NCBI GenBank assembly: GCA_030066985.1
Contig: JASJAN010000051.1
Location: forward strand, 1-39,491
Source: Desulfobacterales bacterium
GTDB taxonomy: Bacteria > Desulfobacterota > Desulfobacteria > Desulfobacterales > JAHEIW01
Length of the DNA stretch: 39,491 nucleotides
Reading direction: 5' to 3'
The notes under the pieces were generated by a model. It had not been told where the DNA came from. It saw only the letters and a program-made list of their open reading frames with translations, and did no database searches. Below are positions 3,527-35,530 of this stretch, piece by piece (positions within the stretch are counted from its first letter, which is position 1; the number at the start of each line of letters is the position of its first letter). A program made the translations under genes and the position numbers.

Positions 3527-3619
3527 ATAGCTGTTTTTTAGACCCGGGTTGTGATATGAGAAAGTATGTATGTGTCCAAAAGACCGATTTGAAGCTATCA
3601 TTTTATAGGAGGTATGATT

Positions 3620-4957
3620 ATGGCTAAAAAATATGATGCGATCATCATCGGGGCGGGCATCATCGGAACCCCCATCGCCTATGAGCTAACCCAAATGGGG
3701 TATAAAACCCTCAATATCGACAAATTGCCTGATGCCGGTGAAGGCTCTACGGCAGCTTCGTGTGCCATCGTCAGGGCCCATTATTCCACCGAGGATGGTG
3801 TGGCCATGGCTTATGAGGGCTTTAAATACTGGCTGGAATGGGAGGATTACCTGGATCATGTCAATGATGAAAAGGGTCTGGCCAAATACATGAACACCGG
3901 CTCGATTCTGCTCAAATCCCAGGGGCATGATTGGCGCAAAGTCCAGAAGCATTATGACGCCGTAGGGGTGGCATACGAAGAGTGGGATAACGCCAAGATC
4001 AACGAGATGGTACCCGTCTATGATTTGCACGAGCACTGGCCGGTCAGGCGACCAGAAGATCCTAAATTTTTTGATGAATCCGCCAAAATGCTTGAAGGCG
4101 CGATTTTTTGTCCTGAAGGCGGTTATGTCAATGACCCGGCTTTGTCGACCCACAATATCATGCGCGCTGCCGAGGCCAAAGGCGCTGAATTTATCTTTAA
4201 TGCCGAGGTGATTGCCATCAGAAGTCAGGACAACCAGGTGCTCGGTGTGACCCTAAAAGACGGAACCGAGATCGATGCACCGGTGGTTGTCAATGCTGCC
4301 GGCCCACACTCGTACAAAATCAACCAGATGGCCGAGGGCGTTTATGAAGCCTGCAACATCAAAACCAAGGCGCTGCGGCATGAGGTCATGCACTGCCCGT
4401 CTCCGGATGAATACGACTATCTCGGTGGGGGTTACCATACATCCGACGGCGATATCGGCTGCTATTATCGTCCGGAAGTCGGCAACATGTTTCTGATCGG
4501 CAGCGAAGATCCGGAATGTGATCCCCAGGAATGGGTCGATCCAGATGAATTCTATGCGGGTAAAGGCGAGCCGGGACGCAACAACCAACTGAGCGAGGAC
4601 CAGTGGAAAGCGCAAACCTACCGCTGTGCCAAGCGGGTACCCAGCATGCAGATACCCAATCAGCCGCGAGGCGTTTGCGATCTTTACGATTGCTCCGACG
4701 ATTGGATTCCGATCTACGACAAGTCGGATATGAAAGGCTTCTATATGGCCATTGGCACCAGCGGCAACCAGTACAAAAATGCGCCGGTGGTCGGCGCCAT
4801 GATGGCGGAGCTCATCGATGCCTGTGAAAAAGGTCTCGATCACGACAAAGAGCCCTTTCAGTTTACATTGCGCCACATTAAGCGGCCCATCAACGTAGGT
4901 TTCTTTTCACGCAACCGGGAGATTAATCCTGACAGTAGTTTCTCAGTAAATGGCTAG
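3620..4957 (+). CDS. SoxB-like FAD-dependent oxidoreductase (DAO family)
   Basis: 445 residues. An N-terminal FAD-binding dinucleotide motif is visible (AIIIGAGIIGTPIAYEL), then STAASCAIVRAHYS where SoxB, dimethylglycine and sarcosine dehydrogenases place the flavin-contact segment, and a C-terminal GFYMAIGTSGNQYKNAPVVG loop typical of DAO-family active sites. The start is ATG 3620: AGGAGG at 3607-3612 is 7 bases away, whereas ATG 3614 would leave only one base. It probably demethylates an N-methyl amine and passes electrons to the ETF encoded downstream, or acts as the beta subunit with the SoxAG-like proteins. The substrate is inferred. The stop codon (4955-4957) overlaps the left arm of a large palindromic element. 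Confidence 0.85.
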   Translation: MAKKYDAIIIGAGIIGTPIAYELTQMGYKTLNIDKLPDAGEGSTAASCAIVRAHYSTEDGVAMAYEGFKYWLEWEDYLDHVNDEKGLAKYMNTGSILLKSQGHDWRKVQKHYDAVGVAYEEWDNAKINEMVPVYDLHEHWPVRRPEDPKFFDESAKMLEGAIFCPEGGYVNDPALSTHNIMRAAEAKGAEFIFNAEVIAIRSQDNQVLGVTLKDGTEIDAPVVVNAAGPHSYKINQMAEGVYEACNIKTKALRHEVMHCPSPDEYDYLGGGYHTSDGDIGCYYRPEVGNMFLIGSEDPECDPQEWVDPDEFYAGKGEPGRNNQLSEDQWKAQTYRCAKRVPSMQIPNQPRGVCDLYDCSDDWIPIYDKSDMKGFYMAIGTSGNQYKNAPVVGAMMAELIDACEKGLDHDKEPFQFTLRHIKRPINVGFFSRNREINPDSSFSVNG

Positions 4958-5100
4958 AAGTGGTTTTAAAACCCCATCTATCGTCCGATAGCTGCGTTAT
5001 CCCGCGAATTGAAATACTCACGTACTGATATGTACGCTCTGTTTTCAATTCGCGGGACGCCTTGCTCTCGAACGCAATCTGACATTTTAAAACCACTTCT
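4956..5100. repeat. 145-bp nested palindromic element, copy A
   Basis: Outer arms AGAAGTGGTTTTAAAA (4956-4971) and TTTTAAAACCACTTCT (5085-5100) are an exact 16-bp inverted repeat. Inside are TGCGTT/AACGCA (4993-4998, 5071-5076), a second exact 14-bp inverted repeat CCCGCGAATTGAAA/TTTCAATTCGCGGG (5001-5014, 5043-5056), and a central CGTAC-N6-GTACG (5021-5036). The left arm begins inside the TAG of the upstream gene. Length and plan match copies at 15380 and 35339, although the stem sequences differ. Function unknown. Confidence 0.85.
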
Positions 5101-5259
5101 TTTAAACCTCTGTCAGCTTGTCTGACCTGACACCTGCCTGCCGCGCCGTAGCTTTTCGAGCGAAGGCGGGACACCTGAAACCTTTTTTGATCGTTCACAT
5201 TTCCACCGATTAACACCTAACCTCGTTGGTGAATTGCAACCTGCAAATCGGAAACCGGA
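5101..5259. repeat. Intergenic leader of etfBA with a GC-rich repeat fragment
   Basis: With copy A this completes the 302-base gap before etfB. It holds GCCGTAGCTTTTCGAGCG with flanking AAGGCGGG (5145-5170). This resembles, in reverse orientation, part of the GC-rich repeats at 16165 and 22287. I see no confident promoter or terminator. The etfB leader has only a weak Shine-Dalgarno-like CGGA. Confidence 0.5.
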
Positions 5260-10267: not shown

Positions 10268-10366
10268 GGTTGATTTGGTTGAGCCCGTTGCCCGCTTGTC
10301 CGCCTCAGGCGGGTTAGCCCGTTTTTCTGTCAGTTTAAAATTAGACATTTTCCTTATTCAACCGGC
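10268..10366 (-). repeat. CCGCCTNAGGCGG element, copy R1
   Basis: It contains GAGCCCGTTGCCCG, the palindrome CCGCCTCAGGCGG (10300-10312), an AT-rich middle with AGACATTTTCCTT (10343-10355) and a TTCAACCGG end. Read on the minus strand it aligns along its whole length with the copy at 12779-12887. The 13-mer is also found, inverted, at 33846-33858. It separates the MoxR and VWA genes. Confidence 0.75.
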
Positions 10367-10404
10367 TCAACCGGCTAACCGGGAACCGTGAACGAAGTGA
10401 ACCT

Positions 10405-13869: not shown

Positions 13870-13959
13870 ATAAAAAAAGCCGATTAAATCTGATCTCCAA
13901 ATCCATTAGAGACGATGGTCGGTCCCGTTTCAACCGATTGCGCTTTGACGGAGGAAAGC

Positions 13960-15381
13960 ATGACAGAAGCAGTGAAAAAGAAAGGCAAAAAGGAAAAGAT
14001 ACCCCGTGTTGCGATGCCCGAACAGGAAGCCGATGTTCGCAATAAAAATTTTTTAGAGGTCCCCACCGGTTACACGCCGGAGATGGCTGTGCTGGAAGCC
14101 CAGAGATGCCTGCAATGCAAAAAGCCCAACTGTGTGGCCGGCTGTCCGGTGGAAGTTGATATCCCCGGCTTTATTCAGCTCATCAAGGAAGAAAAATTTA
14201 CCGAATCCATTCGCAATCTCTGGGGCAAAAACAGCCTGCCGGCGGTTTGCGGCCGCGTTTGTCCCCAGGAAATTCAATGTGAAGGCGTGTGCATCCTTGC
14301 CAAAAAGGGTGATCCGGTGGCCATCGGCAATCTGGAACGCTTTGCGGCTGACTGGGAAAGAGAAAATGGGACCGGTGAGCTGCCGCCTAAAGCCGCTCCT
14401 ACCGGCAAAAAGGTTGCCGTGGTCGGCTCCGGGCCTTCCGGCCTGACAGTTGCCGGCGATTTGATTGTCAAAGGACATGATGTCACGGTGCTGGAGGCTT
14501 TCCATAAACCCGGCGGCGTATTGGTTTACGGTATCCCCGAATTCAGGCTTCCCAAGGCCATCGTGGCCCAGGAAGTCAATTTCCTGGAGCGGCTGGGGGT
14601 CAAAGTCGAATGCAATGCCGTCGTGGGCCGTACCGTCAGCCTGGACGAGCTTTTCGAAGAAGGCTATGACGCCATTTATCTGGGGGTGGGCGCCGGACTA
14701 CCGCGCTTTATGAATATCCCAGGGGAAAATCTCGTGGGCATCCTGTCAGCCAATGAATATTTAACCCGGGCCAACTTAATGAAAGCCTATCTCTTCCCGG
14801 AAGTGGACACCCCCATCCCCATAGGCAAAGATGTGGTCGTGCTGGGCGCCGGCAACGTGGCCATGGACTCAGCCCGCACCGCCATGCGGCTGGGTGCCAA
14901 CAAGGTTCAGATCGTCTATCGCCGTTCACGACAGGAAATGCCGGCCAGAATCGCCGAGATTCACCACGCCGAAGAAGAGGGCATTGAGTTTTTTCTGCTG
15001 ACCAACCCGATCGAATATCTGGGAGATGAGAATGGTCGCTTGACCGGCATGACCTGCCTGAAGATGGAGCTGGGCGAGCCGGATGACTCCGGCAGACGCC
15101 GTCCGGTTCCCATTGAAGGCTCTGAATTTCATTTGGATTGCGATCTGTGTATCGTGGCCGTGGGGTCCGGTGCCAATCCGCTGCTGACCGCATCCACCCC
15201 GGATTTGAAATTAAATCAGTGGGGCTACATCGAGGCGGACGAGGAAACCGGCAAGACCTATAAGAGAGGCGTCTGGGCCGGCGGTGACATCGTCACCGGC
15301 GCGGCTACCGTTATCCTGGCCATGGGTGCCGGCCGCAAAGCGGCGGATAGTATTCACGACTATCTCACCATCGGCTGGTGA
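13960..15381 (+). CDS. NfnB/GltA-type NADPH oxidoreductase (large subunit)
   Basis: 473 residues from ATG 13960 (GGAGG 13950-13954). The N-terminal domain holds RCLQCKKPNCVAGCPVEVDI and VCGRVCPQEIQCEGVC, the cysteines for two [4Fe-4S] clusters. Then come the FAD motif VAVVGSGPSGLTVAGDL, LEAFHKPGGVLVYGIPEFRL, the NADPH motif VVVLGAGNVAMDSARTAMRL and YRRSRQEMPAR, with a C-terminal GGDIVTGAATVILAMGAGR. This is the GltD-like architecture annotated either as NADPH-dependent glutamate synthase (homotetrameric) or as NfnB. The adjacent FNR-like small subunit favours an NfnAB complex that poises the NADPH pool. The stop codon overlaps the left arm of palindromic copy B. Confidence 0.88.
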   Translation: MTEAVKKKGKKEKIPRVAMPEQEADVRNKNFLEVPTGYTPEMAVLEAQRCLQCKKPNCVAGCPVEVDIPGFIQLIKEEKFTESIRNLWGKNSLPAVCGRVCPQEIQCEGVCILAKKGDPVAIGNLERFAADWERENGTGELPPKAAPTGKKVAVVGSGPSGLTVAGDLIVKGHDVTVLEAFHKPGGVLVYGIPEFRLPKAIVAQEVNFLERLGVKVECNAVVGRTVSLDELFEEGYDAIYLGVGAGLPRFMNIPGENLVGILSANEYLTRANLMKAYLFPEVDTPIPIGKDVVVLGAGNVAMDSARTAMRLGANKVQIVYRRSRQEMPARIAEIHHAEEEGIEFFLLTNPIEYLGDENGRLTGMTCLKMELGEPDDSGRRRPVPIEGSEFHLDCDLCIVAVGSGANPLLTASTPDLKLNQWGYIEADEETGKTYKRGVWAGGDIVTGAATVILAMGAGRKAADSIHDYLTIGW

Positions 15382-15524
15382 TTTTCGTTTCTAAACGGAT
15401 CTTTTTCCGATGAGCGTTGTTCTCCGCGAATTTCAGCCTTCGACGTACTACATGTACGCCGAAGGCTAAAATCCTTGTGCGGCCGTGCTCATCAAAAAAA
15501 CCTCTCATTTAAAAATCGAAAATC
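15380..15524. repeat. 145-bp nested palindromic element, copy B
   Basis: Outer arms GATTTTCG/CGAAAATC (15380-15387, 15517-15524), middle arms GATGAGC/GCTCATC (15409-15415, 15487-15493), CCGC/GCGG, and an inner stem AGCCTTCGACGTAC/GTACGCCGAAGGCT (15435-15448, 15454-15467, one mismatch) around a 5-base loop. The length is exactly that of copy A. The centre again reads CGTACT then TGTACGC. The left arm starts inside the TGA of the upstream gene. Confidence 0.82.
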
Positions 15525-15542
15525 TACACTAATAAAAAAACC

Positions 15543-25701: not shown

Positions 25702-26047
25702 TGAGATCTAATAATAAGTCATAAAAAGGAAAGATATCATTTTATCTCATTATTTTTCACCCTATGGGCGAGCCCGCCAGAGGCGGACAAGCCTCGGGCT
25801 TCCATCGGTCCGCCTCAGGCGGATTATTAAGGACGAGGCATCCGCCTAAGGTGGATAGCCTCGCCCTTAAGTGCCATGCATATGAAAGCCTCCAACTCGT
25901 GGAAGTTTGTGATTTTGAATCGTTTAAAACCATACGACTTCTTACTTGCATTAAAATTACTGAGAAGATAATTTTATTCAATATGACAACCAGTTAAATA
26001 AATTATAGAAGTTAAAAATATTACAAATCAATTATAATGGATGGAAA
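25702..26047. repeat. Intergenic region with clustered CCGCCT palindromes
   Basis: Nested pairs GGGCGAG/CTCGCCC (25766-25772, 25860-25866) and GCCTCG/CGAGGC (25791-25796, 25834-25839) surround TCCGCCTCAGGCGGA (25809-25823); variants lie at about 25773-25786 and 25841-25855. The whole 25766-25866 block could fold as one long stem. Just before it, AATGAGAT/ATCTCATT (25700-25707, 25744-25751) followed by ATTTTT is a weak terminator candidate. The rest (25870-26047) is AT-rich with nothing recognised. Confidence 0.6.
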
Positions 26048-30364: not shown

Positions 30365-30658
30365 CTAAACTTGACGCCGATCACTTAAAGTCTTTGAAAA
30401 TGACTGCGGAGTGGCGGACATATCATATTCAAAGTACCGCAAAACGACCTCATAATCAGTTGAGTGCATTGGATGCCGGCGTTTAGATTCATTATCCGGT
30501 GTCTTCAGAATCAACCCGCATTGACCTGCTATCTTGACGACAATTGATCTGGCGATTTTTTCCCGAAAAGCCATCAGAGTTGCGGCCTTGAGCGAAGATC
30601 GGCTTGATCCGCTCCAGATTTGATGTCCGGTGCGGGTGTCGGTCAAATTAAGGATCAC
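30365..30658 (-). pseudogene. Fragment of a TolB-like/adenylate-cyclase-associated protein
   Basis: 97 residues. LTDTRTGHQIWSGSSRSSLK, then MAFREKIARSIVVKIAGQCG and TDYEVVLRYFEYDMSATPQS resemble the middle of long class-III-cyclase/TolB-like TPR proteins (the form I know is LTDT.TG.Q.WS...K...L.AFQE..A..V..K.AGE.GII). A TGA lies in frame five codons upstream and the frame ends without the expected TPR region. It is therefore a remnant of a larger gene. Confidence 0.55.
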
Positions 30659-30951
30659 TTTCTTTCTGAATCATGACATCCGACGGTGCAAGCGCCTTGT
30701 TTTAATACCCAAATTAAAGAACGCATCACCATAATCTTCGAAAAACATAAACTAAGCGTATTGCCCATAGATCACACTAAATGGAGGCATGGCATTGTTT
30801 TTCGAATAAAATTTTAAGTCATCGCATGGCCTATAGGGATAAAACGGCTCTGTCATGTAATTTCGTAAGAGCCATTATCCCTAAACGTCATTTGTTTATC
30901 CTAAATTTAGTGCAAGGTCCTCAATATATTATTTAAAGATAGTTGCCAAAA

Positions 30952-33800: not shown

Positions 33801-33919
33801 GGTTGTCCCGTTGAGTCCGCCTTAGGCGGATTGAGCCCGTTAAAAAAGGAAAATGTCTGTTTTTAATTTCTTTTACCGGCAAACGGGCGAACGGGTAACG
33901 GGCTCAACCTGATTGAGAC
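33801..33919. repeat. CCGCCTNAGGCGG element, copy R4
   Basis: CCCGTTGAG, TCCGCCTTAGGCGGA (33816-33830), TTGAGCCCGTT, the shared 13-mer AAGGAAAATGTCT (33846-33858), an AT-rich middle and AACGGGCGAACGGG then AACGGGCTCAACC. The GAGCCCGTT/AACGGGCTC ends are inverted repeats. It lies five bases from the 3' end of the minus-strand lipoprotein gene. Confidence 0.75.
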
Positions 33920-34512: not shown

Positions 34513-34898
34513 AATTCCCCCCCAAAGCCTTAGGAATGTAAAGCCGGTTCGGTTCAGCCCTATCCGGAAGCGGACAGGGCTGACTGAATCTTATTGTTTG
34601 TGATCTCCCCAAAAGTCTTTGTAATTCGAGGTACTTACCACAATTTAAATTAAGAGCCCGACAAAAAAGATGCACGCACACCCGAGAAGTCTCCTGCTTT
34701 CTTATCGGCACTAAGCGGTAAAAGTTTAGACATTTTTCATTATGATCAACTGTGAGCGGATTTTGCGGCGTTACAATCTGTTACAAACTGTTACATCGCA
34801 GAAAAGCATTCTGTTTGTATTCGAATTATATTTCAACCATCGATAATGTCTTTGTTTTTAAAAACTGATGCAGGTTGTTTTACAACAAAGGAGGAATC
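34513..34898. other. Divergent regulatory gap before the CpxP-like gene
   Basis: 386 bases without a gene. The part near 34770 holds three phased GTTACA repeats, and TATATT at 34827-34832 is a possible -10. The part near the lipoprotein gene (34513-34740) shows nothing recognised. Confidence 0.5.
34770..34795 (+). promoter_or_regulatory. Three GTTACA repeats at 10-bp phasing, candidate response-regulator operator
   Basis: GTTACA occurs at 34770, 34780 and 34790, one helical turn apart. OmpR/CpxR-family regulators bind direct hexamer-like repeats with about 10-bp spacing (CpxR: GTAAA-N5-GTAAA). The site lies 104 bases before the start of the CpxP-like gene, whose locus encodes an OmpR-family regulator. 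Confidence 0.6.
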
Positions 34899-35339
34899 AT
34901 GGTAAAAAAAGGTTTAACAATCACCCTTATCTGTGTTTTTATTTTAGGCGTACTGGTGTTCAATGGTTGCCGCTCGCATTCCCCAGACCATAAAGCGGAA
35001 TTCATGGTGGATTACATTTCCGAGACCCTCGACCTGAACGACAGCCAGAGAGAGCACCTTGATGGGATCAAAGAAGAGTTTCTGGCCAAAGCCAAAGAGA
35101 TGCATGCCAAGAAAAAAGCCATGCATGCCGAATTCAAGACCGAGTTGCTCAAAGAAGAAATTGATCAGCAACGAATGAAAGATCTCATGGCACAGAAGCG
35201 GGAACAGATGGCCGAAATAATGGATCTGGCGGTGGAGCGTTTGGCCGAGTTCCATAAAACCCTGTCAGCGGAGCAAAAGGAAAAATTGGTGGCGAAGTTG
35301 GAATGGTTTCATGAGAAACACAATCAAAAATGGCAATAA
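34899..35339 (+). CDS. CpxP/Spy-like (LTXXQ) periplasmic lipoprotein
   Basis: 146 residues from ATG 34899 (AAAGGAGG upstream). Signal peptide with a lipobox-like VFNGC at about 24. The mature protein is wholly helical, with LDLNDSQREHL and KTLSAEQKEKL, the paired LTXXQ-type motifs of the CpxP/Spy family, and a Lys/Met/His-rich middle (AKEMHAKKKAMHAEF). Family members are spheroplast chaperones or metal-responsive inhibitors of the Cpx kinase. The response regulator and kinase genes follow, so a CpxPRA-like feedback circuit is inferred. The His/Met content also hints at metal sensing. Confidence 0.82.
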   Translation: MVKKGLTITLICVFILGVLVFNGCRSHSPDHKAEFMVDYISETLDLNDSQREHLDGIKEEFLAKAKEMHAKKKAMHAEFKTELLKEEIDQQRMKDLMAQKREQMAEIMDLAVERLAEFHKTLSAEQKEKLVAKLEWFHEKHNQKWQ

Positions 35340-35482
35340 AAGCCATCTCAAAAATGCATCTAACACCCAAGGGCTTTGTTCCAAACCGATTCAAAATGCT
35401 CGAATACTAGCGTGTATGCTCCACTTTTGAATCGGTTTGCGCCTCGCCCTTGGGCGTTACCTACTATTTTTGAGACGGCTTT
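35339..35482. repeat. 144-bp nested palindromic element, copy C
   Basis: Outer arms AAAGCCATCTCAAAAAT/ATTTTTGAGACGGCTTT (35339-35355, 35466-35482; 16 of 17), middle arms AACACCCAAGGGC/GCCCTTGGGCGTT (35362-35374, 35446-35458; 12 of 13) and inner arms AAACCGATTCAAAA/TTTTGAATCGGTTT (35383-35396, 35425-35438; exact 14). The centre reads ATACTAGCGTGTAT. It starts in the TAA of the CpxP-like gene and separates it from the regulator gene. Confidence 0.87.
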
Positions 35483-35530
35483 AAATCATTATCACTAAAT
35501 ACAGAATTAAAATTTCTATTTGGGCGAACC

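Follow-up and report, generated by a model that had tools for sequence, protein, structure and literature searches.

A family of structured hairpins about 145 bp long is dispersed in the genome of a Desulfobacterales bacterium, and most of its copies are placed on the stop codons of neighbouring genes, exact to the base and in one orientation. It is also well supported that the family is mobile and MITE-like. Three copies lie in the window, which is the whole stretch of DNA analysed here (39,491 nucleotides), and in each the near end overlaps a gene's stop codon. These elements, their apical hairpins and their host genes are as follows:

3614..4957, + strand: host gene of element 1, FAD-dependent oxidoreductase (DAO) family (Pfam DAO, E 2.5e-47)
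4955..5102, - strand: element 1, nested hairpin of ~145 bp (cmsearch 145.6 bits)
4955-4957: near end of element 1, TAG, stop codon of gene 3614-4957
5021..5037, - strand: conserved apical hairpin of element 1, GCGTACATATCAGTACG (core pattern match)
13915..15381, + strand: host gene of element 2, oxidoreductase (Pfam Fer4_20 and Pyr_redox_2), whose product we take to be glutamate-synthase small-subunit-like
15378..15527, - strand: element 2, divergent subfamily (cmsearch 78.4 bits)
15379-15381: near end of element 2, TGA, stop codon of gene 13915-15381
15444..15459, - strand: conserved apical hairpin of element 2, GCGTACATGTAGTACG (core pattern match)
34875..35339, + strand: host gene of element 3, LTXXQ / heavy-metal-resistance family (Pfam LTXXQ 1.2e-11, Metal_resist 1.6e-11)
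35338..35484, - strand: element 3 (cmsearch 134.7 bits)
35337-35339: near end of element 3, TAA, stop codon of gene 34875-35339
35403..35419, - strand: apical hairpin of element 3, variant GCATACACGCTAGTATT (direct sequence reading and relaxed pattern match)

A first-pass annotation, made from sequence alone, had described three intergenic palindromes at these sites, each with inverted repeats nested around a short core, and both the sites and the nesting held in a sequence check and in folding against shuffles. The placement on stop codons, the fixed orientation and the strand that folds were absent from it.

Structure and extent of the hairpin family

The element is one long hairpin. Between its outer and second helices lies a symmetric GA/GA internal loop, between the second and third an AAGGCG / AACACAG internal loop, and a GGA internal loop separates the third helix from the apical GCGTAC hairpin. 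Read on the - strand, the shared core is GCGTACA-NNN(N)-AGTACG, of which element 3 carries the variant given above. Against dinucleotide shuffles, z values were -9.8, -6.5 and -10.2 for + strand folds and -12.0, -13.1 and -12.4 for - strand folds (elements 1, 2 and 3, respectively), and in none of the six folds did any of 200 shuffles fold as well as the real element. The - strand folded better in all three window elements, with energies of -77.2 vs -62.1, -73.8 vs -49.4 and -78.5 vs -65.7 kcal/mol (- vs + strand, same order). Element 2 is the more divergent (78 bits vs 146 and 135 for elements 1 and 3) and has close relatives of its own in G001, G002, G003 and G004.

An alignment of 38 copies (A4) was used to build a covariance model, R1, with 148 positions and 56 pairs. 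Paired cells in A4 amounted to 93.0%, vs 72.8% after shuffling, and 91% of cells were paired in the outer helix set. Changes on both sides were observed in 50 of the 56 base pairs, and the covariation score was 0.606, compared with 0.220 when shuffled and at most 0.166 when slid. The three innermost pairs are invariant across the 38 copies, and the most conserved parts are the centre and the internal loops rather than the ends. Quasi-palindrome repair and template switching are processes that can mimic compensatory change without selection. On the strand opposite the neighbouring gene, G-U pairs outnumber A-C mismatches 206 to 28, with G-U in excess in all 38 copies, and because of this excess the template strand, complementary to the host mRNA, is probably the one that folds. 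The structure prediction used the G-U-rich strand, so the count leans towards that strand; the same preference emerges from the folding energies of the window elements, which were obtained without the alignment.

The first-pass annotation had proposed that the palindromes form a repeat family with a conserved core, to be checked with a covariance model in the whole genome and in related genomes, and this claim held, with many more copies found in both. Across the 5.07 Mb genome the core pattern was matched 49 times, vs 0 for a reversed control. Model R1 gave 137 matches at E <= 0.001, which correspond to 134 places, as three are second-strand readings of a place already listed; the genome contains at least this number, since only 150 of 1351 candidates were scored. 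Among genomes of the order, 37 of 58 (own included) have R1 matches, with 1 to 54 per genome, 54 being the number scored per genome in that search. In a phylum-wide sample, 36 of 198 genomes (own included) match at E <= 1e-6, and weaker matches there were counted without one-by-one inspection. Of four matches examined in three distant genomes, one coincides exactly with the stop that closes an open run of 500 codons, one has a stop 7 bases before the element and two show no stop placement. Among the named genomes bearing the exact core are MAGs of Desulfobacterales and Deltaproteobacteria, together with the genomes of two Olavius symbionts. The first-pass annotation would have been refuted if no further copies had been found, or if the model had fitted no better than shuffled sequence, and neither was the case. 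Chance palindromes are ruled out by the shuffle folding, the core-pattern count against its control and the covariation.

The further claim that this is an unnamed element also held. An Rfam scan of the window gave no match at the gathering threshold and a scan of element 1 none up to E 1, and a known RNA family is therefore ruled out in the sense that no curated covariance model in Rfam was matched. The family is thus a large, strongly covarying structured element without an Rfam match. The sole check of phage origin, a viral_contigs search with one exact core pattern, gave no matches. Among the titles returned by literature searches we found none on this hairpin family, and the pneumococcal BOX element was the only partial precedent.

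Several other repeats were observed alongside the family. A small CCGCCTNNGGCGGA-like palindrome is repeated in the genome (window 25774-25822 and 33817-33842) and is inserted into or beside several hairpins (L029, L034, L040, L047 and L052). The second internal loop holds an additional ~50-60 bp (GGATAAATGGATTACACATCT-like) in some copies (L189:3227-3373, own C3:15726; L214). Another repeat, of ~270 bp, has many copies in G001-G003 (L189:18135-18401, own C3 about 30634-30900), and two inverted repeats with common TTGAGCCCGTT-like arms, at window 10277-10372 and 33829-33909, perhaps represent a further repeat family.

Position on stop codons and occupancy in relatives

A copy was scored as lying on a stop when an open run of 80 codons or more had its stop codon at offset -2 to +1 of the near end in model coordinates. 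The own-genome sample of 78 copies was obtained from 109 matches by dropping 31 (27 second-strand readings, three partial matches and one duplicate locus). The near end lies on the stop codon of a gene running into the element in 57 of these 78 (73%), compared with none for the far end, and TAA, TAG and TGA are all used. Of the 21 copies failing the test, four show a qualifying stop displaced by 3 to 7 bases, and four (L026, L041, L193 and L038) have a long ORF that extends 11-31 bases into the element. Positional smear is small, the stop of the longest ORF lying 8-50 bp before the near end in only two of the 78 (L059 and L058). The stop side of the gene faces the 3' side of the element in 43 of the first 51 copies. 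An earlier count, based on 53 core-pattern copies in named contigs, had placed a stop at -68 to -65 in 33, with three more too near a contig edge.

The same placement was observed in other genomes, where 61 of 90 pooled copies were at a stop, vs 3 of 90 for the far end. The pool comprises close relatives of the copy at locus A (83-94% identical, in three congeners; 13/19 at a stop, far end 0/19), other copies in G001, G002 and G004 (17/21, far end 2), copies at other loci (17/26, far end 1) and copies left out at first and tested later (14/24, far end 0). A first set of 60 matches in relatives yielded 40 that were used, after 18 second-strand readings and two partial or weak matches had been dropped; a second set of 95 yielded 26 that were used and 36 that were tested later, with 29 second-strand and four partial or weak matches dropped. 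Twelve of these 36 had already been counted and 24 were new, one of them (L159) at masked sequence. The copies are not all independent, and include orthologous insertions (e.g., L198 and L256) and identical sequences (L137 and L139). Several failing copies in relatives bear TAA or TAG at the near end after a short open run (e.g., L136, L283 and L286); such copies possibly mark short or cut-off genes, or TA may itself be a target.

Eight loci, element 3 not among them, were compared with relatives. In G001 and G002 the same gene is not followed by element 1, nor is a homologue of 64% identity in G004, and all three stop at the residue where the own gene stops. Three further loci keep the stop without the hairpin in relatives: F has no element in G001, G002 or G003, D has none in G001 and is filled in G002, and B has none in G001, with a short element-like start in G002. 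Because the empty relatives stop at the same residue, the copies at element 1 and loci B, D and F are precise insertions, and truncation of the gene by insertion is ruled out at these four. Both G002 and G001 carry element 2 at the orthologous stop, its arms diverged yet still paired; its locus holds an apparent remnant in G004, and in G005 none was found up to the start of masked sequence. At locus C an element lies at the same stop in G001 and G002, with quite different stems in G001, and locus E holds a copy with inserts that is partly present in G001. The copy at locus A is intergenic and off a stop; the site is empty in G001 and G002 and has a short element-like start in G003. Dozens of sites in three congeners hold sequences that match this copy at up to 94% identity, which probably reflects recent movement.

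The host genes are diverse. A Pfam family was matched in all 20 hosts scanned, out of 58 stop-bound host ORFs, and these include citrate synthase, alanine dehydrogenase, ABC permeases and ArgJ, the last with the final position of the profile matched at the final residue of the protein. No common function was evident among the 20. Ordinary host genes thus seem likely to be left intact by the insertions.

With regard to the join, 38 of the 48 copies that have G...C ends are flanked by TA at the near end, and TA also follows the far end in 18 of those 38. The G...C ends are retained in the 10 copies without a TA flank, and for this reason the third base of TAG seems to be borne by the element. 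The flanking dinucleotides are identical in 20 of the 48 (shuffled mean 16.2, p 0.015); an earlier duplication test on 78 copies in uncertain register gave 12/78 for two bases (p 0.93) and 11/78 for three (p 0.03). A TA target duplication is a possibility that these counts suggest without proving. The far flank is T-rich, with a weak W-A-R-T-T-W that is missing downstream of 161 control stops. TA cannot be the sole target, as several off-stop copies lack it. Across 68 own loci, with occupied stops excluded, unoccupied stops make up 81 of 2067 YTAR (~4%) and 21 of 337 TARTT (~6%) non-coding sites, and because candidate targets lie mostly off stops, target sequence alone cannot explain the 73% of copies found there.

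Known systems and the search for a helper

The family fulfils the criteria of a MITE in being short with terminal inverted repeats, in its presence and absence between relatives and in having recent copies. It resembles TA-inserting MITEs such as RUP, whose TA insertion has been ascribed to IS630-Spn1 (PMC2229807), in size, terminal inverted repeats, copy number, TA at the insertion point and non-autonomy; ERIC and Correia elements are further TA-inserting MITEs of similar size, ends and copy number. However, the hairpin family differs in its stop-codon register, its fixed orientation and its conserved internal loops with a G-U bias on one strand, and the term 'stop codon' is absent from the main text of a review of prokaryotic MITEs (PMC10969869). 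Pneumococcal BOX elements encode the stop codon at the extreme 3' end of a gene in 36 cases, with truncation not strongly evidenced (PMC3049150). They are likewise small, interspersed, folded repeats regarded as mobile and sometimes supplying a stop codon, but they are modular (A, B and C modules), and the sections bearing on them describe no base-exact register, single orientation at stops or preference for a folding strand (PMC3049150). BOX may thus be viewed, by analogy of features, as a partial precedent, without implying sequence kinship.

In integrons, attC sites are hairpins just after the stop of a gene that fold from the opposite strand and keep their structure while varying in sequence (PMC2727003, PMC6393395). 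The hairpin family also folds from the strand opposite the gene, at its stop, but its copies are dispersed instead of forming gene-cassette arrays, and they lack the outer recombination boxes: RYYYAAC / GTTRRRY was found in 0 of 78 copies, and membership of attC was rejected on this ground. REP/REPIN sequences with their RAYT are intergenic, palindromic, present in more than 100 copies and thought to be moved in trans (PMC2817692). The present family shares the first three of these properties and is inferred to be moved in trans as well, but it is most conserved in the centre, not in terminal hairpins, and three genomes that carry it (G013, G033 and G054) have no match to the Y1 transposase profile PF01797.

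That profile has three matches in the own genome, where the reverse transcriptase profile PF00078 has none. The IS630-type DDE_3 profile, PF13358, was not matched in G000 (own), G001, G002, G004 or G013, and no parent insertion sequence was found, PF13358 being the only IS family searched, in G000. Profile searches of the genomes thus give no support to reverse transcriptase, Y1 transposase or IS630 DDE_3 as obligate helpers, although these negatives are limited by draft assemblies and gaps. Two one-arm matches of element 1, checked as possible parent ends, proved to be copies with inserts. The GC skew of G004, over 20 sampled stretches, showed no clear origin, and the replication strand of the copies could not be assigned. 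As a separate observation, G053 has 43 reverse-transcriptase matches, most of them identically scored, which suggests a recent burst of an RT-encoding element.

Competing explanations and meaning

We propose that the element is a high-copy, non-autonomous, MITE-like unit of ~145 bp whose form under constraint would be the folded single strand complementary to the host mRNA, and that copies would enter the genome at stop codons in one orientation. Copies with G...C ends would join after the second base of the stop (TA|G), with the third base coming from the element, and the host gene would thereby keep a stop and its full length; where the ends are A...T, the predicted join can be fixed only to within one base, owing to a run of A. 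The mobile intermediate is inferred to be a folded single strand, with DNA or RNA undecided, and the element would be moved by a helper enzyme encoded elsewhere, which is also inferred, no helper having been found. We infer too that insertion itself, not later selection, explains most of the stop-codon preference. The family, its folding, covariation and strand bias, its presence and absence in relatives, its position and its orientation are shown; the full model, of a hairpin moved in trans and inserted at stop codons with the template strand folded, we favour by a modest margin.

One possible alternative is an ordinary TA-inserting MITE that lands anywhere, with selection sparing the copies on stop codons in one orientation. 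The TA in the near flank of most copies with G...C ends and in the far flank of some, the weak far-flank motif and the TAA or TAG borne by some copies without a long ORF all speak for it, and copies landing inside genes would be lost. However, stops are only a few percent of the candidate sites and yet hold most own copies; copies closely related to that at locus A lie on stops about as often as the others do; neutral sites a few bases past a stop should serve equally, yet such copies are nearly missing; the orientation is fixed despite the symmetry of TA; and the own genome has no IS630-type transposase match. Insertion targeting is favoured over selection because copies hardly scatter around the stop and keep one orientation, and because of how recent copies behave.

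It is unlikely that the hairpin is a cis-acting 3' UTR structure, either a terminator or an mRNA stabiliser, kept for the expression of the host gene. Its position directly 3' of stop codons, the T-rich far flank and the element 2 locus, which keeps a hairpin with re-paired arms in three congeners, would fit this explanation, but G-U is tolerated on the strand opposite the mRNA and not in the mRNA, which is the poorer folder in all three window elements. Moreover, 4 of the 8 compared loci (element 1, B, D and F) are stop-bound with an empty site in a relative, and the 20 scanned hosts have no evident common function. If chromosomal genes had picked up a solitary integron-like site (attC or a related one), the layout would be alike, a structure-conserved, sequence-variable hairpin at a stop with an opposite-strand fold. 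We consider this very unlikely, as the outer boxes are missing and conservation is highest in the centre and internal loops, not at the ends; in addition, the gene of element 1 ends alike in hairpin-free relatives, and therefore the hairpin came alone.

To return to insertion at stop codons, a stop codon exists as such only for the translation machinery, and what mobile elements recognise is the sequence or the structure of DNA or RNA. A base-exact, oriented landing on stops implies either insertion coupled to translation or an unusually sharp selective filter, and both are testable. What is new here is the position on stop codons, in one orientation, in a little-studied bacterial group. In a bolder reading, which we consider possible but less likely than not, the insertion machinery would sense stop codons by way of the mRNA, or of the ribosome as it terminates, and would deliver the folded template-strand hairpin after the second base; RelE-type ribosome-dependent nucleases cut stop codons at that same bond, a parallel drawn by analogy only. 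The layout of gene, stop and opposite-strand hairpin resembles integron cassettes, the origin of which is an open question. If the bolder reading is true, the family would represent a mobile element that targets stop codons, and also a living model for the origin of integron-style units of a gene plus a hairpin.
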